A stretch of DNA of 64,000 bases, from NCBI RefSeq assembly GCF_041860085.1, contig NZ_CP124747.1, positions 5,355,001 to 5,419,000 on the forward strand, written 5' to 3'. The DNA comes from Schlesneria sp. DSM 10557 (GTDB lineage Bacteria; Planctomycetota; Planctomycetia; Planctomycetales; Planctomycetaceae). The position numbers were made by a program, and so were the translations under genes. Positions 9,730 through 64,000 of the stretch are shown one piece after another; positions within the stretch are counted from its first letter, which is position 1, and each line of letters begins with the position of its first letter. The notes under the pieces are model-generated. The model saw nothing but the letters and a program-made list of their open reading frames with translations. It did no database searches and was not told the origin of the DNA.

Positions 9730-10947
9730 ATGAAAGTGGACCGTGGGCACGAAGTACTGATCATCAATTGCGGCAGCTCTTCGTTGAAGCTCGCATGGCT
9801 TGATGCAGCCACTGGCGTATTGAGGGCCAAGGGGCTTGTCGAGCGGATTGGTGAAATCGGGACGAAAGTCCGATTCACTCTGCAGGATGTCACGATCGAA
9901 AAGGAGGTACCGGGTCTGGACCACGGAGCCGCGCTGCGGGAACTGGTAGGGCTGTGCTGGACTGGCGGAGTCCATCCGTCGTCGGTGGTGGCGATCGGTC
10001 ATCGTATTGTTCACGGCGGCGAATTCTTCAGCCACCCGTGCCTGATTGACGACGAAGTCATCGCCCGGATCAGGGCCTGTGCCGAACTTGCACCCCTGCA
10101 CAATCCCGCCCATCTGGAAGGCATCAAAACCGCAAGGGATCTGTTCCCTGATCTGCCGCATGTTGCGGTCTTCGACACGGCCTTTCACCAGACTATGCCC
10201 GCAAAGGCCTTTCATTACGCGATCCCTTATCAGTGGTACGAAGAATTCAAAGCCCGCAAATACGGCTTCCATGGAACCAGTCATCAGTTTGTCTCCCGGG
10301 AAGCGGCTGTGCGTCTGGGACGCCCCGCCAATGACTGTCAGGTCGTCACAGCACACCTGGGGAACGGGTGCAGTGTGTGTGCGGTGAAGAACGGGAAAAG
10401 CGTCGATACCAGCATGGGGCTGACTCCTTCTGAAGGGCTCGTGATGGGGACACGCAGCGGTGATATTGATCCCAATCTGACGGAATACATTTCGGGAAAA
10501 TCGGGGCTGTCGATCCGTGAAGTGAACGACATGATCAACCGAAAAAGTGGACTGCTGGGGATCTCGGGATTGAGCAACGATATGCGGACCCTGACTGACG
10601 CAGCCATTGCCGGGCAGCCTCGGGCGGCTCTGGCGATCGAGGTCTTCTGTTACCGGCTGGCTCGTCAGGTCCTGGCCATGTGTGCGGCCCTCACGCGAAT
10701 TGATGCTCTGGTCTTTACTGGCGGAATCGGCGAGCACTCGTCGGTGGTCCGCGAAAAGACACTTTCCGCTCTGACAATTCTGGGGCCCGAACTGGACCCT
10801 GAACGCAATCTGGCAAACGGCATTCAATCTCAGGGACGAATCACGCGTGACGATTCGAACGGTCTGGTCGCACTGGTCATCCCCACCAATGAAGAATGGA
10901 TGATCGGGCAATTTGCGGTGGAACTGTGTCAGAAGCACGATCAGTAA
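9730..10947 (+). CDS. ackA: Acetate kinase
   Basis: A 405-residue cytoplasmic kinase that interconverts acetate plus ATP and acetyl phosphate plus ADP. It carries the ASKHA signatures: INCGSSSLKLAW near the N-terminus, GHRIVHGG, VFDTAFHQTMP, YGFHGTSHQFVS, HLGNGCSVCAV with the DTSMGLTPSEGLVMGTRSGDIDP block, and FTGGIGEHSSVVREK near the end. Length is normal for AckA. It is followed 12 bp later by pta, so the two make the classical acetate pathway operon. Confidence 0.97.
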   Translation: MKVDRGHEVLIINCGSSSLKLAWLDAATGVLRAKGLVERIGEIGTKVRFTLQDVTIEKEVPGLDHGAALRELVGLCWTGGVHPSSVVAIGHRIVHGGEFFSHPCLIDDEVIARIRACAELAPLHNPAHLEGIKTARDLFPDLPHVAVFDTAFHQTMPAKAFHYAIPYQWYEEFKARKYGFHGTSHQFVSREAAVRLGRPANDCQVVTAHLGNGCSVCAVKNGKSVDTSMGLTPSEGLVMGTRSGDIDPNLTEYISGKSGLSIREVNDMINRKSGLLGISGLSNDMRTLTDAAIAGQPRAALAIEVFCYRLARQVLAMCAALTRIDALVFTGGIGEHSSVVREKTLSALTILGPELDPERNLANGIQSQGRITRDDSNGLVALVIPTNEEWMIGQFAVELCQKHDQ

Positions 10948-51254: not shown

Positions 51255-52166
51255 CTACTGAATCAGATACTCTGAAGAACCCTCATCGACGCGGGGTGTC
51301 TGTCCCCCTCGCAGCACGCTGTTCCCCTGGAACAGGTTTCGCTGATCGACGGGAAGTGGGTTCAGCCAGTCCGACTCCTGGAACTGACCGCTCTGCGCGT
51401 AGGCCGTCAGTGCGTTACGGTAGCAGGCCAGTTCGATGTGTTCCTGCGGAATGCCGCGCTCTTCTGCCAGCTTGGCTGTTTTGGGGACCGCCAGGACGTC
51501 GGACTTGCCCCAGTCGGCTGAGCTGTCGACGATCACTCGTTCCGCTCCTGCGACTTGCAGAATGTCGACCATCCGGGCATTTCCCATTTTGGTTCCGGGG
51601 TAGATCGTAAATCCACACCAGTAACCGCGATCGAGCACTTCGCGGTAGGTTTCCTCATTGTTGTGATCGATGATGCACATGTGAGGTGAAATGCCATGCT
51701 CTTCGATGACATCCATCGTCCGGTACGTCCCCCGCTTTTTGTTGCGATGAGGCGTGTGAATCAGGACGGGCAGTCCGACTTCCTTGGCCAGCTCCAGTTG
51801 CAGGCGCAGGAATTTTTCCTCGGTCGCGGTCTGGTCGTCGTAACCGATCTCACCAATTGCGACGACCCCTTCCTTGGTGGCAAACAGGGGAAGGAGATCC
51901 ATGACCTGCTCGGCGAGTCGTTCGTTGTTCGCTTCCTTGGAGTTCAGTCCGATCGTGCAGTAGTGCCGGATCCCGAACTGCGCCGCCCGAAACCGTTCAA
52001 ACCCGACAAGGCTCGAGAAATAGTCCTTGAAGGTACCGACTTCCGTCCGTGGCTGCCCCTGCCAGAACGCCGGCTCAATAATCGCCTTCACCCCCGCCGC
52101 CGCCAACGCTTCATAATCGTCTGTCGTCCGGGAAACCATGTGAATGTGAGGGTCAATGTAGTTCAT
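51255..52166 (-). CDS. TatD-family metal-dependent hydrolase
   Basis: A 303-residue amidohydrolase-fold protein. Metal ligands are visible in YIDPHIHMVSRTTDDYEAL (HxH), the Glu of AIGEIGYD, the His of VLIHTPHRNKK and IIDHNNEE, and the late Asp of IVDSSADWG. The form beginning D-P-H-I-H-M with FTIYPGTKMGN recalls the TatD-like hydrolase of the ebo gene cluster (EboB), but no other ebo gene is nearby. Since the next gene is DUF6513, a role in C1 or cofactor metabolism is also possible. It is the last chromosomal-type gene before the island. Confidence 0.8.
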   Translation of the reverse strand: MNYIDPHIHMVSRTTDDYEALAAAGVKAIIEPAFWQGQPRTEVGTFKDYFSSLVGFERFRAAQFGIRHYCTIGLNSKEANNERLAEQVMDLLPLFATKEGVVAIGEIGYDDQTATEEKFLRLQLELAKEVGLPVLIHTPHRNKKRGTYRTMDVIEEHGISPHMCIIDHNNEETYREVLDRGYWCGFTIYPGTKMGNARMVDILQVAGAERVIVDSSADWGKSDVLAVPKTAKLAEERGIPQEHIELACYRNALTAYAQSGQFQESDWLNPLPVDQRNLFQGNSVLRGGQTPRVDEGSSEYLIQ

Positions 52167-52308
52167 ATTATCTGTAAACTCCTGTGCCGTGTGGTTTTAA
52201 TGTCGCTGGACGCACGAGATATTGCACGGGTTCGCCATAGTTCTTAGAATTCTGCACAGGTTGCACGAGTTCCAGAGAGCAGGGACGCCAACCCCGCAGG
52301 ATACCAAA
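52167..52308. other. Left border of the integrated element (putative)
   Basis: Short region before the recombinase gene where base composition shifts from the chromosome to the GC-richer island. TTGCACGGGTTCGCC (52222-52236) and TTGCACGAGTTCCAG (52261-52275) are imperfect direct repeats that could be part of an attachment core, but no tRNA gene is present here and the partner site is outside the window. Confidence 0.35.
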
Positions 52309-53508
52309 ATGCCACCCGGCCCGAAACCTTCCGTCAGCTACTGGCGCAGCCGAAAGGCCTACGGCTGCTGGATCGGGCCGCAGCAGCACATCCTCGCCAA
52401 GGGGCCGGACGACGCCCCGACTGGCGCGACCTACCTCGCCGCCCTGGAGCAATTCCGCAAGCTGCTGGCGCAGGACGCCGGGAAGGGTACAGACCATTAT
52501 CTTGTTTCTGCTCTGCTAAACCAGTATCGGGCGCACCTTCACGCAACTCGGAAGAGCGGCGTGCCCGGTGTGTTCGAGGTCATGGCCCGCGGGTTCGGGG
52601 TGAAGTTCGGGCCGAAGCGGGTCTGCGACCTCAAGCCCTACGACTTCGACCAGTGGCTCGCCAGCCAAGACCAGTGGAACTCCACGAGCAAAGCTCACGC
52701 TGCCGCGCTCATCCTCGGGGCGATCAGTTGGGCGAGGAAGAAGGGGTTCATCCAGACCGACCCGCTCACCGGTAGGATCGAGCGGCCCCCGCCGATTCTC
52801 CGCGGACGCGACGCCCGCATGTCGGAAGAGCTGATGGACCTGCTCATCAGCGAGTGCTTCGTCAAGGCGACGTAAAACCGCACTAAACGGACCGACAACC
52901 CCGGCGTCCAACTGAAGAAGACCGGCTTCTGCGAGCCGTTTGGCAAGTACCTCTGGATGCTCCGCCTGACCGGTGCGAGACCGGGCGAGCTCCGCCACGC
53001 CGAGGCGTTCAACTACGAGAGCGGTCGGCTCGTGTTCCGCTGGAACGCTCAGAAGGGCTACATCTGGAAGAACGCCCGGAAGACCCAGCGCGACCGCGTG
53101 ATCTTCCTCACCCCGGAAGCACAGGCTTACGTCGAGGAGTGCGTGAAGAAGAACCCCGAGGGGCCGATCTTCCGCACGCTCCGCAACGACCCGTGGACGC
53201 CGCAGAACATCGCGAACAAGTGGCGACGCTGGCTGTTGCTCAGGCCGAGCGTGAAGGCGTATCTCGACGAGCACGGCATCGAACCAAAGGAGATGCGGAC
53301 CTACAATTTCCGGCACTCGGCGATCTCGAAGTGGTTGGATGCCGGCGGCGACATCTACGTCGCCTCGCAACTCTTCGGCACGTCGGTGAAGATGCTGGAG
53401 AAGCGGTACGGCCATCCCGACATCGACCGGCTGCACGAGCGGTACATGGCATTCGCAACGGCGAACCCGATCACGCCACCGTGGGCAGTTGCGAGCCGGA
53501 ACAGTTAA
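52309..53508 (+). pseudogene. Tyrosine recombinase/integrase interrupted by an in-frame TAA
   Basis: Reads as a 399-codon phage-type integrase in one frame with a single TAA at 52873-52875 (codon 189). The first 188 residues hold the SAM-like DNA-binding domain (LLNQYRAHLHATRKSGVPGVFEVMARG, HAAALILGAISWARKKGFIQTDP). The rest holds the catalytic domain: Arg in MLRLTGARPGELRHAE, the Lys-bearing strand KTQRDRVIFLTPEA, the second Arg in YNFRHSAISKWLDAGG, YGHPDIDRLHERYMAF with the presumed Tyr nucleophile. Start ATG follows GCAGGA. The stop lies in the linker between domains. It may be a true inactivation or a sequencing error; a split protein is less likely since no ATG/RBS restarts it early (the next ATG is at 52957). 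Confidence 0.85.
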
Positions 53509-53531
53509 TTCACCATGTGAGAGAGCGGCGA

Positions 53532-54458
53532 ATGCCACACGTTCTTGTTGCCGACTCGTTCTTGGATGAGGAGCGAAAGGTCTCCTATTACGATGTCGTC
53601 CTGCCCTTCTTCAAGATGGCGGCGGATGGTACGCCGATCGAGCACGTCGGAACCTGCTTCCCCATCGGCATCGGTATTTACCTGACAGCAGCTCACAACT
53701 TCGAGGGTTTCCAGAAAACCAGGGGGCGCTACAAGCGGCAGTCGCCCGAGAAGACCGCCCCGACAATGGAAGAGATGGTCGAACGTCTCGAGTGGATGAA
53801 GGAGGACAAGTTTCTCGAGGGCGCAGATGTTAACTGCGGGGCGATCATCTTCGACCCGGCCGCGATAAGAGAGGGCCAGCTCAAGCCTCTCGGCATCTCG
53901 TACGTCACCTCCGTCCTCATGACACTGGACTTCGACCTTGCGGTCCTCTTGGTGCGGGACGACGCTCGGAGGAATCTGGACGGGGAAAGGACACCCATCC
54001 CCTGCCTGTCTCTCATCGAGAACCCGCACATCGGCCAGAAGATCGCCGTCGCTGGTTATCCAGGCGCGAAGAACAAATTCAAGCTCACAGAAGTAGATGG
54101 AAAGCCGAAGGTGAATTTCGGAGTGTCGCTCGTGGTCAACGAGGGCGAGATCACCGACCTGTACCCGATCATGCGAGACGTTGGACCCGCCTTCTTCCCA
54201 TGCCTCCAGACCGACATCGACATCGCCCCCGGGCAGAGCGGCGGGCCAGCGTTCTGCAAAGAGACGCTGAGCGTTGTCGGGATCAACTCGATCGGCGGAA
54301 TTGGCGGTGGGTTGGTGTCGTGGGCAGGCAAGGCGTTCGATGCGGAGTTGTTGACTCCGATCGGACTTACCATCGGCGGCAAGTCCTTGAATGCCGGAGA
54401 AGCGACGACCCTCCGCGAACTGGCGGAGGCGGGAATGATTCAGATCTTCAACGAGTAG
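53532..54458 (+). CDS. Trypsin-like serine protease domain protein
   Basis: A 308-residue protein with no signal peptide. The chymotrypsin-fold triad can be seen: His55 in YLTAAHNFEG, Asp135 (or 133) in TLDFDLAVLLV, and Ser236 in APGQSGGPAF. The segment SVVGINSIGG after the Ser matches the substrate-binding strand. Cytoplasmic trypsin-like proteases of this sort occur in phage-defence loci, where they cut after activation by partner sensors. It begins 23 bp after the integrase and its stop lies 3 bp from the stop of the convergent TIR-like gene. Substrate not known. Confidence 0.82.
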   Translation: MPHVLVADSFLDEERKVSYYDVVLPFFKMAADGTPIEHVGTCFPIGIGIYLTAAHNFEGFQKTRGRYKRQSPEKTAPTMEEMVERLEWMKEDKFLEGADVNCGAIIFDPAAIREGQLKPLGISYVTSVLMTLDFDLAVLLVRDDARRNLDGERTPIPCLSLIENPHIGQKIAVAGYPGAKNKFKLTEVDGKPKVNFGVSLVVNEGEITDLYPIMRDVGPAFFPCLQTDIDIAPGQSGGPAFCKETLSVVGINSIGGIGGGLVSWAGKAFDAELLTPIGLTIGGKSLNAGEATTLRELAEAGMIQIFNE

Positions 54459-54461
54459 GCG

Positions 54462-55694
54462 TTAGCCGAATGACCGGACGTTCCAGAAGCCCGTGCTCGT
54501 AAAATGGTCGCTGCTGTCCCGGCCGAAGTGGCGGCAAAGGTGGTCGAGCGAATCCTTGAGCAGGCTCGCCGTGGTCGGCACGTCTTTCACCTGCTTGACG
54601 TTCTTAACCCGCACCAGCGGTAGATCGAAGTCCCTCTCGCACGCATCCGACGCAGCCTCGTGATTGTTCGGGACGAGTCTGAACCCTTTGACCCCTACCA
54701 GCGAGATCCCGACCTGCCACGGCGGGTTTATGCCGAGTTGTTGAAGGAGCTGGCAGTCAGCGAAGACATGCTCGACGATGTTCCGCTGAAGTGGCATGTC
54801 GAAGAGCAGCCGGTTGTCCTCGTCCGAGTAAGTCATCTCCGGGCGGCGGTGCATCTTTAACTGATTTTGCATGGACACGTAGTCGCCGCCGTAGGCCCTC
54901 AGCAAGTAGCCGGCGAGGTTCAGCTTCGTGGCTTCGGCGTGTTTCGTCCAAACGATGCCGTCGGACTTCGTCTTTGGGTTCACTGAAAGGACGGCGCGGA
55001 CAGTGTCGACGGCTTTCGGGTAGTTGGGCCGCGGTACAGGCTGGAACTGGATCGAGGTCAGCACGGCTGGCAACAGGTCGAAGCTCTCGAACGCCTTGGC
55101 GGCCACCTTCTCGGAAAAGGATCGCTGCACTGATACCACGCTCTCGTCCTTGCTGGTCTCCTTGCTTGTGCGTTTCGGCAGAGCAACCGTCTCGATCGTC
55201 GCCCTAAACACGACTTCAAGTTGCTCGCTAAGCACCTTCCGCACCTTGTCCCGCTCGGCCTTCGGGGCGTCCGCGGGAACGTTGTACTTCAGGCAATCGC
55301 GCCGCTTGATGTCGAAGACCTGCCCCTCGACCTTCCCGAACGCTTCATTCATGACGCCGATCAGCGCGTTAAACGTGAGGTGCCGGGCTGCGTACCCGAG
55401 TTCGATCACCACGTTCGTGTTTGGTAGCAGCTTCGGCGGGTCGTTCTCGGTCTTTCCGACGATCGTCAGGTCGCAGAGGAACATGTCGGCGCTTCGGATC
55501 TTTTTCAGGATCGTATTCGGGATGTCACACATCCCGGCGACGCCCTTCGTGTCCGAGTCCAACTCCAGGTTCCAGTTGTTGCTTTCGTCCTCGGAGATGC
55601 GCTCGCACGCGTCCTTCGCCGCATCGCGGATCAGATAGTGGTTCACCTTTCCGGGGCGGTCGGATTGCCAAGCATAGAAAACCTTGAAGTCCAT
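54462..55694 (-). CDS. TIR-like Rossmann effector-type protein with a novel C-terminal domain
   Basis: A 410-residue protein. The first 130 residues have the TIR/STIR-like pattern: FYAWQSDRPGKVNHYLI at the start, DIPNTILKKIRSADMFLCDLTIVG, and NTNVVIELGYAARH with Glu98 in the position of a catalytic acid of NAD-cleaving relatives. The remaining 280 residues are an uncharacterised alpha/beta region. Proteins starting YSWQSD are common in defence islands and are thought to be TIR-like nucleotide-acting effectors. The start at 55694 opens MDFKVFYAWQ; it converges with the protease gene. NAD hydrolysis has not been shown for this subgroup as far as I know. Confidence 0.6.
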   Translation of the reverse strand: MDFKVFYAWQSDRPGKVNHYLIRDAAKDACERISEDESNNWNLELDSDTKGVAGMCDIPNTILKKIRSADMFLCDLTIVGKTENDPPKLLPNTNVVIELGYAARHLTFNALIGVMNEAFGKVEGQVFDIKRRDCLKYNVPADAPKAERDKVRKVLSEQLEVVFRATIETVALPKRTSKETSKDESVVSVQRSFSEKVAAKAFESFDLLPAVLTSIQFQPVPRPNYPKAVDTVRAVLSVNPKTKSDGIVWTKHAEATKLNLAGYLLRAYGGDYVSMQNQLKMHRRPEMTYSDEDNRLLFDMPLQRNIVEHVFADCQLLQQLGINPPWQVGISLVGVKGFRLVPNNHEAASDACERDFDLPLVRVKNVKQVKDVPTTASLLKDSLDHLCRHFGRDSSDHFTSTGFWNVRSFG

Positions 55695-55764
55695 CTGAGC
55701 GTCTCGTGAGCCGTGGTGCGCATCTCGCTCTGATTGTATCGCAGGCCAGATGGACCAGCCAACG

Positions 55765-56013
55765 TCACCACAGTGGCAATGTCTCCCGCTTGGGCCTACC
55801 CCTCGGCCGCCTTGGCGGTGGCGGCATCGACGGCGCTTCCGGCGACTGACCGCCTCGCAACAGTTCGAGCAGGCTGTCCTCCTCGATCAGCAGTTTGCCG
55901 ATGGAGCGATTCGACCGGAGCTTGCCCTTGCCGACCAGCGCGTAAATGAGCTTGGCGGAGACCGAGCCGTTGAGCCGTTGCACCACCTGGCGGACGGAGA
56001 GATAGCTTTTCAT
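55765..56013 (-). CDS. Excisionase-like HTH protein with AT-hook tail
   Basis: An 82-residue protein starting MKSYLSVRQVVQRLNGSVSAKLIYALVGKGKL, the helix-turn-helix pattern of MerR-like excisionases (HTH_17 type). The C-terminus, after a proline stretch, has PRRPRGRPKRE, a classic AT-hook core (RGRP). Small proteins of this sort direct excision or regulate mobile elements. Its ATG overlaps the stop of the preceding gene by 4 bp (ATGA), so the two are coupled. It sits between the TIR-like gene and a decayed frame. Confidence 0.7.
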   Translation of the reverse strand: MKSYLSVRQVVQRLNGSVSAKLIYALVGKGKLRSNRSIGKLLIEEDSLLELLRGGQSPEAPSMPPPPRRPRGRPKRETLPLW

Positions 56014-56186
56014 TCCACAACCTCGCCTTGCCTCCGCTTGAACACCATGTACCACCGCGCGTGCTCGCGGGCTTCCTTCCGTTCCGCGAACAACCCCTTG
56101 GCAGCCTCGCCGATGATGTAGATCGCCCCCAGCAGGAAGCCGCAGGAGACAGTCAGCAAAACGTCGCGTGTAATTTCCAGTTCCAT
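56010..56186 (-). CDS. 58-residue single-pass membrane protein
   Basis: Begins MELEITRDVLLTVSCGFLLGAIYIIGEAAKGLF, one hydrophobic segment (about residues 9-28), then a basic helix (AERKEAREHARWYMVFKRRQG). It overlaps the HTH gene by 4 bp and follows a decayed frame by 18 bp, so it was probably the middle gene of a small operon. Function unknown. Confidence 0.55.
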   Translation of the reverse strand: MELEITRDVLLTVSCGFLLGAIYIIGEAAKGLFAERKEAREHARWYMVFKRRQGEVVE

Positions 56187-56203
56187 GTTCAGTTCCTCGA
56201 TGG

Positions 56204-56555
56204 CTAGCAGAGCCGCGCCGCCTCCCGCTGCGCCAGCTCCTCGTATCGCTCCAGCGCCTCCTTGCACACGTGGTAGAACTCGTTGAAGGCATCGCGCCTC
56301 TCCTCCTCCCTGAGACAAGGCGCGATGATCTCCAGCAGGGCCTTCGCCGTCAGGAAGGCCGTGTCATGCCGAAGGTGCTGGCATCCTCCCGCTCCTTCTT
56401 GGCCAGCGCTCGCGGAACCGGGAGCATCGAGTACAGCTCGAGCAGCCTCCGGTCGCGCTTCAGGTGCCAGTCCAGCAACCGCACCGTCATCCAGTGCGTG
56501 AACCAGTACATCGCCGCCCGAGGATTAGGGCGAACACGGTCATCACGTACATCAT
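56204..56555 (-). pseudogene. Degenerate small membrane-protein gene split over three frames
   Basis: Three adjoining pieces in different frames read together as one coherent protein: MMYVMTVFALILG (from ATG 56555), then AAMYWFTHWMTVRLLDWHLK and LLELYSMLPVPRALAKKERED, then HDTAFLTAKALLEIIAPCLREEERRDAFNEFYHVCKEALERYEELAQREAARLC ending at TAG 56204. Each piece has good codon use and the sum is about 117 codons. Frame changes lie near the GGGCGG at about 56520 and near 56375. It is either a decaying gene or a place with sequencing errors. Confidence 0.5.
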
Positions 56556-56623
56556 CAGCGTGTCTCCAGAGAAAGCGGGCGAGCCACAGCGCCCCGGCGA
56601 CGACCGCGCCGAGGATCAGCAGG

Positions 56624-56776
56624 AACTGCCCTTGCCCGCGCTGCAAGGCCCGCAAGTTCGAGGTGATCGTGGTGAAGCACACCGGGAAGCCATACGTCTG
56701 CAAGCTGGTTTGCACGTCTAAACAGTGCCGGAGAAAAGTCTCGTATGACGTCATGGGCGGGTTCGCGACACGTTAG
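56624..56776 (+). pseudogene. Zinc-ribbon gene remnant
   Basis: The plus-strand frame ending at TAG 56774 reads NCPCPRCKARKFEVIVVKHTGKPYVCKLVCTSKQCRR and then VSYDVMGGFATR, a Cys4-type zinc-ribbon pattern (CPRC ... CKLVC ... C) with high GC3. No start codon precedes it in a sensible place and the upstream part of the frame is noise, so the 5' end is probably lost. Confidence 0.4.
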
Positions 56777-56873
56777 CCGGCCGGGGCCAGTCCCCGGCTC
56801 CAGTGGCGATCGTTGGAACCGCGTCGAGGCAAGGCGTGGGTGGAAAGAAGGCGGCGGGTCACAGTCCTACGGG

Positions 56874-56972
56874 ATGAACACCGTGCTCGGGACCACCATC
56901 GGGGCAGTGCTCTTGGCGGCGATTTTCATCCAGCTCAGCGGCATCGACCCGTCTGCCGGGCATTCGCTTTGA
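56874..56972 (+). CDS. 32-residue hydrophobic peptide
   Basis: MNTVLGTTIGAVLLAAIFIQLSGIDPSAGHSL: one TM segment and a short polar tail, with good codon use but a weak ribosome site. It could be a toxin-like peptide or chance. Overlaps the end of a minus-strand frame. Confidence 0.3.
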   Translation: MNTVLGTTIGAVLLAAIFIQLSGIDPSAGHSL

Positions 56973-57150
56973 CGCAGCAGCTGCTCACCAGCGTCTCTGG
57001 CTTCTCCGAATCGATCCGGCACTCGATCGCGTTCTGCCGGTCACGGTCTCCCCGCATCTCAGCCAACGCCCGCAGCACGTAGAACTTGTCCCCGGCAAGG
57101 GGGTGCGTCGATTCTTCGATGCTCTCTACGGTTGCAAACATGCGGCGCAT
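56935..57150 (-). CDS. 71-residue hypothetical protein
   Basis: Starts MRRMFATVESIEESTHPLAGDKFYVLRALAEMRGDRDRQNAIECRI and has even, high-GC3 codon use throughout. No motif recognised. An AGGA at 57157 precedes the second ATG at 57141, which may be the true start. Confidence 0.4.
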   Translation of the reverse strand: MRRMFATVESIEESTHPLAGDKFYVLRALAEMRGDRDRQNAIECRIDSEKPETLVSSCCVKANARQTGRCR

Positions 57151-57554
57151 CCTAAAACCGTCTCCAAGTCCGGCGCTACCACTTTCATCCTCCCCCGCTC
57201 AAACCTCCCTCACTCCGGCTCTGAGCAGAGTGCCCCAGCGCCTCTGCCCGGACGTTCCTCGCGGGGGATGGTTCTGCGAACCCCGCGATGACCGACCGAG
57301 CGACGGCGACGAGCAGTGCCAAACCCTCCCAATTCGCTTCAAATTCTTCCGAATTTGCCGACCACGACAGCCCCTTAGTGTGCGAAGCGCCACAATCCAC
57401 AAAGCCAGCACCGGTGATCGGTTGCGACCGCGGCACCCATGTCGTAACCTTATAGGAGTAGCCTAGCTGCCATGTACGCCTGTTCCGTAGCGGGTGAACT
57501 TTACGGGTGAACGGACCCCCGATGTGCGGCTAGCGGTCTGGTCGCGGGGGTGTG
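57151..57554. other. Region upstream of the modification-restriction operon
   Basis: About 400 bases. No gene seen; open frames on both strands are short and incoherent. GTGAACTTTACGGGTGAACGG at about 57497-57515 contains a tandem GGGTGAAC word that might be an operator for the operon. Promoter boxes are not clear. Confidence 0.4.
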
Positions 57555-58913
57555 ATGCAGTTCATCGACTTATTTGCGGGACTCGGCGGCTTCCATGTCG
57601 CCCTGCGCCGCTTGGGTCACGAATGCGTCTTCGCATCTGAGATCGACCCTGTCCTCCAGTCCCTCTACGAACTGAACTTCGGTCTCGCCGCTGAAGGCGA
57701 CATCCGCGAAGTCAGCATCCCCGACATCCCCAAGCACGACATCCTCTGCGCTGGTTTCCCCTGTCAGCCGTTTTCCAAGGCCGGATCGCAGAAAGGCCTG
57801 AAGTGTCCCCGGTTCGGCAGCCTCTTCGACAACGTCGTCGAAATTCTGAAGGTGCGGAAGCCCGAGTACATCCTGCTTGAGAACGTGCCGAACCTCGCCC
57901 GCCATGAAGGGGGAAAGACCTGGTCTCAGATGCGGCAGCGTCTGGAAGGGGCCGGGTACACGATCGACGAGCACCGATTCTCCCCCCACCAATTCGGCAT
58001 TCCCCAGATCCGCGAGCGAATCTACATCGTCGGCTCCCGCTCTGGCTTGGAGGACTTCGGCTGGCCCGAAGGGAAGAGCAAGGCCACCACGTCGATCCTG
58101 TCGGCGCTTGAGAAGAACCCCGCCGACGCCCGCCCCGTAAACAAGCAGGTGATCGACTGCCTGAACGTCTGGCAGAAGTTCGTCGAGCGGTACCCGAAGG
58201 ACGAGGACCTGCCAACCCACCCGATCTGGTCGATGGAGTTCGGGGCGACCTACCCCTACGAGGACGAGACCCCGCACGCCGCCGGCCTCCAGCGCCTGTG
58301 CTGGACCAAGGGCAGCCACGGGCAAGACCTGCGCGACCTGCCACGTGCAGAGCGCATGCTCGGGCTTCCTTCGCACGCACGCTCCGAGGAAGACAGATTC
58401 CCGGACTGGAAGATCCATTTCATCCGCCAGAACCGCGAGATTTACCGGAAGAACAAGGCGTGGATCGACAAGTGGATGCCGGAGATCCTTGCGTTCCCGT
58501 CGAGCCTGCAGAAGCTGGAGTGGAACTGCAAAGGCGGGGAACGCGACATCTGGAAGTACGTCATCCAGTTCCGGGCCTCCGGCGTCCGGGTGAAGCGGCC
58601 GTCGAGTTCGCCCTCGCTCGTCGCGATGACGACGACCCAGGTGCCCATCATCGCGTGGGAAAAGCGGTACATGACCCCGCGCGAGTGCGCGAAGCTCCAG
58701 AGCCTCAGCGAGCTTGAGCACCTGCCCGAAGCCGCAACGCGGGCGTTCAAGGCGTTGGGGAACGCGATCAACGCCGACGTCGTCGAGCTGATTGCCGCGA
58801 ACCTGCTCGGGCAGCCTCCCAAGTCCTCAAAGAATGGCCACGCGGGGAACGGATACCCCTTGTTCGAACACCGCCGCGCTGTCGGAGCAGAAAAGCTGGC
58901 GGGCTCCAGATGA
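57555..58913 (+). CDS. DNA (cytosine-5)-methyltransferase
   Basis: A 452-residue C5 methyltransferase. Motif I FIDLFAGLGGFHVALRRLGH, motif IV with the catalytic cysteine GFPCQPFSKAG, motif VI LLENVPNLARHEGG, motif VIII QIRERIYIVGSR and motif X GNAINADVVELIAANL are all present in order, with a target-recognition region of about 200 residues between VIII and X. It is the first gene of the operon with 18 bp to the GHKL gene. In this system it should protect the host sites that the downstream restriction module would attack. GTG 57552 is an alternative start. Confidence 0.95.
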   Translation: MQFIDLFAGLGGFHVALRRLGHECVFASEIDPVLQSLYELNFGLAAEGDIREVSIPDIPKHDILCAGFPCQPFSKAGSQKGLKCPRFGSLFDNVVEILKVRKPEYILLENVPNLARHEGGKTWSQMRQRLEGAGYTIDEHRFSPHQFGIPQIRERIYIVGSRSGLEDFGWPEGKSKATTSILSALEKNPADARPVNKQVIDCLNVWQKFVERYPKDEDLPTHPIWSMEFGATYPYEDETPHAAGLQRLCWTKGSHGQDLRDLPRAERMLGLPSHARSEEDRFPDWKIHFIRQNREIYRKNKAWIDKWMPEILAFPSSLQKLEWNCKGGERDIWKYVIQFRASGVRVKRPSSSPSLVAMTTTQVPIIAWEKRYMTPRECAKLQSLSELEHLPEAATRAFKALGNAINADVVELIAANLLGQPPKSSKNGHAGNGYPLFEHRRAVGAEKLAGSR

Positions 58914-58931
58914 CCACAAAGGGGCTCGCGA

Positions 58932-60488
58932 ATGGCTCGGCAGCGTACCGATGAGAAGGTGAATATTCGCCCGGAGGTGAGCATCCTCTCGGTGCTCAAG
59001 CACCTCAATTACAAGCCGTGGTTCGCGATCGCCGAGTTCGTCGACAACGCGATCCAGAGCTTTCTGGCCAACCGGGAACGGATTATCGAGGCCGACGGCC
59101 CGGATGCCAAGCTGGGTGTGGCCATCGAACTGGACACGTCCGCCGAGGGGCGGATCGTTATCCGCGACAACGCGGCCGGTATCTCCAGCGCGGATTACGC
59201 CCGCGCCTTCAAGCCCGCCGAAGTACCGCCCGACCGAACCGGCTTGTCAGAGTTCGGTATGGGAATGAAGAGCGCGGCCTGCTGGCTGGCGAGTGAGTGG
59301 ACGGTTCGGACCACGGCCCTCGGCGAGGACGTCGAGCGCTCCGTTTCCTTCGATGTGTCTTCGATCATTCAGAACCGGATCGAGGAGTTGGACATACAGA
59401 CGCGGGACATGCCCGCTGGAACGCACTACACCGAGATCACGCTGAGCGGCATTCACAAGATGCCGCAGGGCCGGACAATCGGGAAGATCAAGGAACACCT
59501 GGCCGGAATCTACCGCGCGTTCCTTCGGGACGGCGTTCTGGAGCTGAAGTGGGACGGGGAGCCGCTGGCGTATGACGAGCCCGGGATCCTGTCCGCCCCG
59601 TTCTATCGGACGCCGCTCGCCGATCCGATCATCTGGCGGAAAGAGATCGACTTCGACTTCGGCGACGGCCTGCGTGCGTGGGGGTTCGCCGCCTTGCGGG
59701 AGCGTGCGAGCGTTTCCTCGGCAGGGTTCGCGCTGTTCCGTCGCAACCGGGTCATTCAGGGGAGCGGAGACGAAGGGTACAGGCCCGAGGCCATCTTCGG
59801 GAAATCGAACAGTTACCGCTATCAGCGGCTCTTCGGTGAACTCCACCTCGAGGGGTTTCAGGTAAGCCACACCAAGGACGGCTTCCGATGGGAAGAGCAC
59901 GAGGAGATATTTCTCGAGTTCCTGCACGAGCACCTGAACGCCGACCCCATGCCGCTGCTTACTCAGGCCGAGGAGCATCGCGCGAGGCCGTCGCGCGGGT
60001 CGTTCACGGTCGGAGCAAGAGCGGCAGCCGAAAGAACAGCCGAAGTGATCGAGCGGGACGTGCCGCAGGTGATCGAGGCTCAGATCGAAGCCGGCCCGGA
60101 CCCCGACCCGCCGCCGACGGTCTTACCGCCGGCGCAAGCGGTGGCGAGCGACCGGACGATCGACGTCGAGTTGCGTGGCCAACCTTGGCGCATTATCATC
60201 GAACTTACGACCGATCCAGCCATAGGCGAGTGGGTCAGCATAAGCGACAGGCCGCTGCAGGCCGACGGGAACGTCCAGCGCCGATGCCTTGCAGTTCGTC
60301 TTTCTTTGGCGCACCCGTTCACCGACCGTTTCGGCGGGACGGACGTAGCCCGGATCGAACCATTACTTCGGCTGGCTGCCGCGATCGGCCTCGCCGAGAC
60401 CGCCGCGCGCGAAGCGGGTGTGCAACTGGCGGGAACATTCCGACGCAACATCAATGAGCTGCTGCGGGAAGCGCTTTCCAACCCGTAA
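58932..60488 (+). CDS. MORC-like GHKL ATPase of a restriction system
   Basis: A 518-residue protein with the Bergerat ATP-binding fold in the first 200 residues: N box EFVDNAIQSF (Glu35, Asn39), G1 box RDNAAGIS (Asp79, Gly83) and G2 box EFGMGMKSAACWL (Gly109-Lys113). The layout resembles the MORC/MutL-like ATPases found in prokaryotic restriction-modification operons with Z1 proteins. Residues about 200-330 look like an S5-type second domain; the C-terminus is unassigned. Such ATPases are thought to clamp or remodel DNA. Positions between the methylase and Z1 gene support the role. Confidence 0.88.
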   Translation: MARQRTDEKVNIRPEVSILSVLKHLNYKPWFAIAEFVDNAIQSFLANRERIIEADGPDAKLGVAIELDTSAEGRIVIRDNAAGISSADYARAFKPAEVPPDRTGLSEFGMGMKSAACWLASEWTVRTTALGEDVERSVSFDVSSIIQNRIEELDIQTRDMPAGTHYTEITLSGIHKMPQGRTIGKIKEHLAGIYRAFLRDGVLELKWDGEPLAYDEPGILSAPFYRTPLADPIIWRKEIDFDFGDGLRAWGFAALRERASVSSAGFALFRRNRVIQGSGDEGYRPEAIFGKSNSYRYQRLFGELHLEGFQVSHTKDGFRWEEHEEIFLEFLHEHLNADPMPLLTQAEEHRARPSRGSFTVGARAAAERTAEVIERDVPQVIEAQIEAGPDPDPPPTVLPPAQAVASDRTIDVELRGQPWRIIIELTTDPAIGEWVSISDRPLQADGNVQRRCLAVRLSLAHPFTDRFGGTDVARIEPLLRLAAAIGLAETAAREAGVQLAGTFRRNINELLREALSNP

Positions 60489-60501
60489 CTGGAACTAAGT
60501 A

Positions 60502-62718
60502 ATGAGCACCGATGGGGCCGATCCTCCTGTCACCGTCGATATCCTGCCTGATGGGGCCGGCAACCCGCCGCCTTGGGACCCGCAGCCGGGGCCGGAGGTC
60601 GGCCTGCTCAACCTTCCCGCCGGTGCCCGGAATCAGATCGTAGAAGAAGCCTGCCGGATTCTCAGGCGGTGCGTGGACCCCAACGGCCCGCCGCAGACGC
60701 AGACCGGGCTGGCTATGGGCTACGTCCAGAGCGGGAAGACTACTTCGTTCACGACCGTGACCGCGCTGGCCCGCGATAACGGCTACCGCCTCGTGATCGT
60801 CATCGCCGGCACGACAGAGATTCTCTTCGAGCAGAACCGCGATCGGATCATCGAGTCGCTCCAACTGGAATCCCGGCCGCGCAGCACGCCGTGGAGGCAC
60901 ATCACCCAGCCCCACTTGCGGAACAACTCCCACATCCAGATCCGCGACACGCTCGCCCAGTGGGACGTTCCCAACGCGATGCCGGAGGAGCGTCGGACGG
61001 TGCTCGTCACGGTCATGAAGCATCACCGGCACCTGCAAAACCTCATTGACGTTCTGCAACAGGTCAACCTGCAAAACGTGCCCACCTTGCTGATCGACGA
61101 CGAGGGCGACCAAGCCGGCCTGAACACTCAGGTGAACCAAGGGGACGAGAGCACGACCTACCGTCGCCTGCTCGACCTGAAGACGGCCCTGCCGCTGCAC
61201 TCCTACCTGCAGTACACAGCTACGCCGCAGGCCCCGCTGCTCATCAACCTCGTCGACGTACTCTCTCCGACCTTCGCGGAGATCCTGACGCCGGGGGCCG
61301 GGTACGTCGGCGGCGCGGATTTCTTCCTGCGAAACCCGACTTTGATCCGCGACATCCCCGTCGCGCAGGTCCCCACCAACCGCAACGTCCTGAACGCTCC
61401 CCCGGCCACGCTCACCGAGGCGATGCAGCTCTTCTACGTTGGCGTGGCGATCGGCTACATCAACGGTCAGCCCGAGCAGAACTGCTCGATGATGGTCCAC
61501 CCATCACAGCGCACTGACCCGCACCGCCAGTTCCACGGCTGGGTGACAACGGCTCGGACCGACTGGCTCCAGATCATCGACCTGCCGGACGACGACCCGG
61601 ACAAGATCGACCTGCTGGCCCAGTTTCAGCGGGCCTACGACGACCTCGCAACAACGACCCCAAACATCCCGACGTTCGCGCAAGTCGTCTCTCAACTCCG
61701 GCGTTCCATCTCGCTCACCGAGATCACGGAGTTGAACACGCGCGGAAACCGCCGCACACCCCAGATCAACTGGGGGCAGTCGTACTCGTGGATTCTCGTG
61801 GGCGGTCAGTCGATGGACCGGGGATTCACGGTCGAAGGCCTCACCGTCACGTACATGCCGCGCTCACTGGGCATGGGCAACGCCGATACCGTCCAGCAGC
61901 GGGCACGGTTCTTCGGTTACAAGCGGCCATACCTCGGCCTGTGCCGAATCTTCGTCGGGCAGGACGTCCGCCGCGCGTTCCGCTCCTACGTCGAGCACGA
62001 GGAGGACGTCAGAGGGGAGCTTGCCACGTTCGCGCAGACCCAGCGACCGCTCTGGGAATGGCGCCGCGAATTCTTCCTCAGCCGCCAACTCCGGCCGACG
62101 CGGGACAACGTGATCGACGTGGCCTACCAACGGATGCGGTTCGGAGATGAATGGGTCTACCCGAACGGGCCGCACGACACCGCCGATGCGGTTACCGCGA
62201 ACGCCGCGCTGTTCAACCAGTTCAGAGCGGCGCATCCGTTCGGCCCGTACAACGGCCTCGACCTTCGGCAGAACAGCCGCCGGAACCAGGTGATCGAGAA
62301 CATCCCGCTGCAGACCGTGCATGAAGAGCTTCTGACGCGCTACCGCGTCACCCGGCTCGAAGACTCGCAGCAATTCGGGGCCATGCTCCGCCTGATCCAG
62401 CTCTACTTGATCGACAACCCGAACGCGACCTGCACCGTGTTCCTGATGGCCGAGGGGAACACCCGGCGCCGCGACTATCAGGACGACCAGATCGTGCAGC
62501 TCTTCCAAGGGCGCCAGTACGCTCAGATCAACGGTGCGCGAGGCATCAGCTACCCCGGCGACCGCGAGGTCAGAGGGGCGAACGGCATCACGATACAGAT
62601 GGGATACCTCGACCTCGGACAGCCGAACGCCCTCGTAGGGCAGAACATTCCCCACCTCGCGGTTTGGGTCCCGTCCAGCATGGCCCGGGACACTCTCTCA
62701 CAGCCGCAAGGGGGATGA
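60502..62718 (+). CDS. Z1-domain ATPase of a restriction system
   Basis: A 738-residue P-loop protein of the Z1 family. Walker A is GYVQSGKTTSF (Gly73, Lys79, Thr80); an acidic Walker B-like strand LLIDDEGDQAGLNT follows at about residue 195; the central Z1 block includes LQYTATPQAPLLINL, SYSWILVGGQSMDRGFTVEGLTVTYMPRSLGMGNADTVQQRARFFGYKRPYLGLCRIF with arginines typical of helicase-like ATPases. It is the third gene of the operon (13 bp after the GHKL gene) and its stop overlaps the start of the nuclease gene by 4 bp (ATGA). Z1 proteins usually pair with MORC-type ATPases; the activity is not well known. Confidence 0.92.
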   Translation: MSTDGADPPVTVDILPDGAGNPPPWDPQPGPEVGLLNLPAGARNQIVEEACRILRRCVDPNGPPQTQTGLAMGYVQSGKTTSFTTVTALARDNGYRLVIVIAGTTEILFEQNRDRIIESLQLESRPRSTPWRHITQPHLRNNSHIQIRDTLAQWDVPNAMPEERRTVLVTVMKHHRHLQNLIDVLQQVNLQNVPTLLIDDEGDQAGLNTQVNQGDESTTYRRLLDLKTALPLHSYLQYTATPQAPLLINLVDVLSPTFAEILTPGAGYVGGADFFLRNPTLIRDIPVAQVPTNRNVLNAPPATLTEAMQLFYVGVAIGYINGQPEQNCSMMVHPSQRTDPHRQFHGWVTTARTDWLQIIDLPDDDPDKIDLLAQFQRAYDDLATTTPNIPTFAQVVSQLRRSISLTEITELNTRGNRRTPQINWGQSYSWILVGGQSMDRGFTVEGLTVTYMPRSLGMGNADTVQQRARFFGYKRPYLGLCRIFVGQDVRRAFRSYVEHEEDVRGELATFAQTQRPLWEWRREFFLSRQLRPTRDNVIDVAYQRMRFGDEWVYPNGPHDTADAVTANAALFNQFRAAHPFGPYNGLDLRQNSRRNQVIENIPLQTVHEELLTRYRVTRLEDSQQFGAMLRLIQLYLIDNPNATCTVFLMAEGNTRRRDYQDDQIVQLFQGRQYAQINGARGISYPGDREVRGANGITIQMGYLDLGQPNALVGQNIPHLAVWVPSSMARDTLSQPQGG

Positions 62719-63722
62719 CGTGGCCAGACTGGATCTGGTACGCCTCTTTGCGGGGCTGCCTTTTTCCCGCCGGTGACAGTCCCGCCGGCAGGTTTTCCGC
62801 ACAGCCGCTTCCGGGTGTTCGTTCGTGCTCGGTCGGAAAGGATGCTGCTGGCTGCCCGGCGCTTCTGATCCAGACGGAAGCAGCAGGGCCACGTGCCCCC
62901 GTTGGGCCTATCGTGCTCGAGAACCTGTCGGTGCTCCACAACGGGGATTGCCGGATGCAGAACGTCGATGGCGAGGCGACAACTCACCGCTTGTCGGTGA
63001 TCCGCTGCTGCGGCGAAGACTCCGCACTCCACGAATACTTTCTCCGCGCCCTGTCCCCGGTCATCAGCTCGCTTCCCGCGCGGCCCACGCGAGAGCAGGT
63101 CGCCGAGGCAGTTAACACGCTGGTAGAGTTGTTTTCGCCGGGCGTCACAGGCCCCGCGAAAGACCTGCAGGGCCTCTGGGCCGAACTGTTTGTCATCCAG
63201 CGGGCAGCCGATCCCGCCGCGTTGCTTCGCGCTTGGCACGTCGAGCCGGAAGACCGGTTTGATTTCACCGATGACTCGCAACGGATCGAGGTGAAGACGG
63301 CGTCCGGGCGGGCGCGGATTCACGGCTTCTCGCACGAGTAGCTCCGGCCTCCAGCGGGATGCCGCGCGATGGTTGCTTCGGTCCTAATGGAGCGAGGGGC
63401 CGGCGGGCAGAAGGTGAATGATCTGATCGACGACATCCGACAGCGAATCGCTGACCCGGACCTGTTGATTCGCCTCGATACCGTCGTGGCGGCAACGCTC
63501 GGGTCGGAGTGGAGGGCAGCGCAGGAGAAGCGGTTTGATCGGCAACTCGCGGAGGAGTCAATTCGTTTCCTCGACGCTCGCACCGTCCCGTCAGTGCCGG
63601 CCGGCTTGCCGCCCGAAGTGACCGAGGTCCACTTCCGGGTTGACCTGACGAATCATGCGCTCGACGAACCTGAGGAGTTGCGTGAGGCCGGCGGACTCTT
63701 CGCCGCCGCCTTTCCGGGCTGA
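62715..63722 (+). pseudogene. DUF4420-type PD-(D/E)XK nuclease interrupted by an in-frame TAG
   Basis: Continuous in one frame for 335 codons except for TAG at 63339-63341 (codon 209). The first part has LPGVRSCSVGKDAAGCPALLIQT, LQGLWAELFVIQRAADP and the nuclease core DRFDFTDDSQRIEVKTASG (Asp183, Glu192, Lys194). The family pattern across the stop is HEF/SxEQLRPP; here it is GFSHE-stop-LRPPAGCRAMVASVLMERGAGG, so a CAG glutamine codon turned into TAG is the simplest reading. The total length fits the family. It would be the effector nuclease of the system. Residues after the stop (63342-63722) match the C-terminal domain closely. Confidence 0.85.
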
Positions 63723-64000
63723 CGAAGTTCAACGGCTTCCCGGACCTGAGATGCGATCGCTGCGGGGTCGCGGACGATGACCGACTCCCAGAACCTGAGC
63801 ACCATCCAGCCTTCCTCCGTCGGCCGGGAAGTCTGGATCTGGTCCGTCTCGCGATTCCGGCTGATCTTCGCAACCCAGTAGTCCGCGTTGTGTCGCCGGA
63901 GAAGCTGCTCCTGCAGCACCGCCCAGTTCCGGCCGTGCCAGAAGTCGCCGTCGGAGAACACCACCACGCGAGCGCTGGGGAAGACGACATCCGGGTTGCC
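63653..64000 (-). CDS. Vsr-like very short patch repair endonuclease, 5' end outside the window
   Basis: Partial, reading in from the right edge: NPDVVFPSARVVVFSDGDFWHGRNWAVLQEQLLRRHNADYWVAKISRNRETDQIQ, matching the Vsr pattern VVIFTHGCFWHxHxC...FWLEKIGKNVERDRR. The catalytic Asp/His region (DGDFWH) is kept; the Cys/His zinc positions near it are replaced by GRNW. Its 3' end overlaps the end of the nuclease gene by 70 bp on the opposite strand. Vsr nicks T:G mismatches left by deaminated 5-methylcytosine, so it fits beside a C5 methylase. Confidence 0.85.
   Translation of the reverse strand, partial: GNPDVVFPSARVVVFSDGDFWHGRNWAVLQEQLLRRHNADYWVAKISRNRETDQIQTSRPTEEGWMVLRFWESVIVRDPAAIASQVREAVELRQPGKAAAKSPPASRNSSGSSSA

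Follow-up and report, generated by a model that had tools for sequence, protein, structure and literature searches.

Does the cluster of predicted restriction-modification (RM) genes at the right end of a 64,000-nucleotide stretch of the Schlesneria sp. DSM 10557 genome (contig NZ_CP124747.1; hereafter the window) form a working ATP-dependent restriction system, and is that system of a new kind? A sequence-only reading had described a complete operon, and its genes, their order and their gaps (18, 13, and -4 bp between the methylase, GHKL ATPase, Z1 ATPase, and DUF4420 nuclease genes) were confirmed. The operon is nevertheless not complete, as an in-frame TAG at 63339-63341 lies inside the nuclease gene. 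The interpretation as a predicted ATP-dependent restriction cassette is supported in part: the cassette, judged by its sequence, is a member of a class that is already known and found widely, with a function that is predicted only, and the nuclease of this copy is interrupted. We consider it rather probable that this is a predicted ATP-dependent restriction cassette linked to 5-methylcytosine (5mC) and that the present copy is dead for restriction, with the methylase and Vsr frames open.

The assignment to a known class comes from the two ATPases and their neighbors. The prokaryotic MORC ATPase (58932..60488, + strand; 518 amino acids, GHKL, S5-like and C-terminal domains; PF13589, 57.9 bits) retains E35, D38, N39, D79, and G83, all invariant in a 46-row alignment including the window protein, as are G265, L268, R270, and R273 of its motif G265FALFRRNRVI275. 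Its AlphaFold model has a mean predicted local distance difference test (pLDDT) of 89.6; since Foldseek placed Hsp90/TRAP1 at the top, ahead of MORC3 (rank 8), MORC4 (rank 11), and MORC2 (rank 40), the fold by itself cannot tell MORC from Hsp90/TRAP1. The Z1 ATPase (60502..62718, + strand; PF10593, 134.5 bits) carries D462TVQQRARFFG472, which matches DThhQXuRhFG; K79, T80, D199-E201, D203, Q204, T239-Q243, D462, T463, Q465-R467, R469, and G472 are invariant in the six rows of alignment A2. The third operon type of Iyer, Abhiman and Aravind (2008) combines MORC with a superfamily 2 (SF2) helicase bearing a C-terminal DThhQXuRhFG domain, a restriction endonuclease (RE)-fold protein, Dcm, and Vsr. 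The window cassette shares with it GhXhhpXXRhl in MORC, DThhQXuRhFG in the helicase, an E-D-ExK nuclease, and cytosine methylase and Vsr neighbors, and differs in its interrupted nuclease gene. The Corynebacterium diphtheriae BH8 island, taken from a 2017 reconstruction of how microbial defense systems evolved (PMC5379612), differs in having an EcoRII-like endonuclease besides, and MORC is not named in the available part of that source.

The DUF4420 nuclease gene, of the PD-(D/E)XK kind, is split into a front part (62715..63341, + strand; PF14390, 51.5 bits, profile positions 58-198) and, in the same frame, a rear part (63342..63722, + strand; 37.6 bits, profile positions 209-306). All the motif residues (E, D, and EVK) lie in the front part, with the motif columns kept. 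A genome search independently reported the same single internal TAG, which falls on a column with the same residue in 42/42 aligned intact relatives; the remaining ten invariant columns are all retained. Because both halves keep their coding bias (third-position guanine-cytosine (GC) content of 0.75 in front and 0.74 in the rear) and match L097, the nearest relative, at similar identity (45% and 42%), the break is taken to be recent, or else an assembly error. Across the 80 MORC loci used for neighborhood counts, DUF4420 is open over at least 318 amino acids in 66.

Several points weigh against the favored reading. The TAG could be an assembly error. DUF4420 is missing in 7 of the 68 relatives having at least 4 kb of downstream sequence, so the nuclease is dispensable at times or those copies are dead as well, and its structure model found no match among solved structures (best E 0.028). 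Three of the 78 methylases adjoining the 80 MORCs (L098, L104, and L139) are of another type, and among the four genomes of the same phylum that carry a close MORC, two have a different type; therefore, the tie of the cassette to one methylase type is not strict. The nuclease might even be alive, with the TAG an assembly error or read through, or with the halves made separately and then joining: the two halves are alike in bias and identity, the earliest start codon past the stop (ATG 63369) lies 27 nt downstream, and the other three cassette proteins and the ten further invariant columns of the nuclease all appear intact. We regard this as unlikely, if plausible, given that the assembly is a single contig of 99.78% completeness, that the TAG removes an invariant residue, that the integrase frame of the same island is likewise broken, and that internal DUF4420 stops occur in 3/17 of the phylum's DUF4420-bearing genomes, counting this one, besides the seven absences.

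The C5-cytosine DNA methyltransferase (57555..58913, + strand; 452 amino acids; PF00145, 212.7 bits) departs from its family at one of the 104 columns with a conservation of at least 95%. Its target-recognition region (approximately residues 200-340) is kept across phyla, which suggests that this methylase type is locked to one fixed DNA target. The expected co-occurrence of MORC and methylase held in relatives, where a methylase lies near 78 of the 80 MORCs. This count argues against the reading that the cassette, like Mza, is triggered by phage or acts abortively, its methylase merely protecting from self-attack; we find that reading quite unlikely. The window cassette, unlike Mza, has a methylase, and scores for the MzaB, MzaC, and MzaD equivalogs fall far under the NCBIfam cut-offs: 14.5 bits against 850, 96.7 bits against 1500, and, in the intact relative L059, 15.3 bits against 420. 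No AIPR protein (MzaE in Mza) and no sigma-like gene was recognized by Pfam among the island proteins scanned, a scan that covered part of the island frames. Assignment to the CglI/NgoAVII type was rejected as well: these systems have three genes, a PLD nuclease with a B3 recognition domain, and no MORC, whereas the window nuclease is DUF4420. VcSduA (GHKL-Shedu, paraMORC3) also has a GHKL ATPase domain and a PD-(D/E)XK nuclease domain; the available text of PMC12137116 gives both as required for defense.

The convergent Vsr-like gene of the sequence-only reading, for a Vsr mismatch endonuclease, is present but runs past the window: its frame spans 63653-64318, with 63653..64000 (- strand; PF03852, 34.5 bits) inside, and the whole protein scores 114.9 bits with TIGR00632. 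Both this frame and that of the methylase are open and the nuclease frame is not, which would also fit a methylase and Vsr retained as a pair in their own right, Vsr penalizing any loss of methylation and the nuclease decaying meanwhile. A precedent is found in Caulobacter, where a Vsr-like protein puts a cost on losing a solitary C5 methylase that is not linked to it (PMC12907096, in its available part). We hold this explanation to be rather unlikely. In the view we favor, intact cassettes would perform ATP-dependent restriction tied to 5mC, and the window copy would no longer restrict, its methylase and Vsr remaining open reading frames despite the nuclease break.

As the sequence-only reading had proposed, the cassette lies on an integrated element, an island of 12.4 kb (52160..64000 in the window; right end ~64533). 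The flanks at ~52160 and ~64533 are 12.4 kb apart here versus 90-1334 bp in six same-genus genomes, which lack the island; seven of the eight same-genus matches were retrieved, and the seventh has one flank only. A close MORC was found in one of 15 genomes of the genus, the window genome itself, with a 30% partial match in one further genome. GC content is 0.62-0.65 in 2-kb bins across the operon versus 0.53-0.61 in the remaining window bins. At the left end lies a tyrosine-recombinase frame (52222..53508, + strand), probably the integrase remnant, that is interrupted by an in-frame TAA (52873-52875); its rear part scores 26.1 bits with PF00589, slightly below the cut-off of 27.1, and its front part matches no family. 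Searches found no tRNA and no clear end repeats. The island looks like it is decaying.

We searched viral contigs with the methylase target-recognition profile and obtained 16 loci. MORC adjoins the methylase in nine (in L160 as a fragment at the contig end only), and in four (L145, L154, L158, and L159) a ParB-like protein and a 310-amino-acid protein stand in its place. The remaining three show neither partner in the available DNA: L153 stops right after the methylase, L156 starts within it, with terminase, portal, and head protease genes on the visible side, and L157 is fragmentary. A Neorhizobium plasmid (L143) carries the pair with a methylase split over two frames; a Rhizobium plasmid has a partial copy, with pair and methylase both absent within 7 kb. 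The 310-amino-acid protein has no Pfam family and no match in the phage collection, and its profile returned only its four source contigs among the viral contigs. It is a probable nuclease, its conserved GLD ... QCASG-NW--K stretch being a possible PD-(D/E)XK variant. The ParB-like protein of L154 resembles PADLOC PD-Lambda-5_A and PDC-M38A. Judging from these neighborhoods, one methylase type is taken to serve two unrelated gene sets, the MORC cassette and the ParB-like/310-amino-acid pair.

In a tree of the methylases, the four from viral loci with the ParB-like partner fall at three places among cassette methylases. This placement needs three changes, which could stand for a single gain plus two losses; among 200 bootstrap trees, 0% permit a single change. 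The L159 methylase is nested in a mainly Bacteroidota cassette group (support 99/95), and that of L156 groups with cassette L112 (100/96). The tree has few rows, L154 and L158 are long branches, and the bootstrap has not settled.

Further genes were seen at these loci. The island carries a trypsin-like peptidase gene (53139-54458, + strand; PF13365, 43.1 bits; weak PADLOC matches only) and, convergent with it, a gene for a 410-amino-acid protein (54462-55694, - strand) with no family in Pfam, NCBIfam, or PADLOC. Plasmid relatives of the front part of the latter are annotated as TIR domain-containing or nucleotide-binding protein, and it may be a second defense gene of the island. In prophage cassette L148, a transposase-like frame (9843-10670), read from the sequence, splits methylase from MORC. 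One phage methylase (L203, 4992-6203), from Caudoviricetes sp. vir323 with Methanobacteriales listed as the host, belongs to this broad family, matches the target-recognition profile weakly (40.4 bits), and is flanked by tail and head genes.

In animals and plants, MORC ATPases act in the silencing of repeats and viruses; their bacterial relatives occur in predicted RM operons. A compact cassette of four genes with one conserved methylase makes the MORC mechanism testable with one target and one nuclease, and the interrupted window copy is a natural comparison for intact cassettes. If two unrelated machines do guard the same methylated site, they would allow a direct comparison of how different ATPases are coupled to cutting. 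Of all the findings, the shared methylase with its conserved target region most deserves follow-up.
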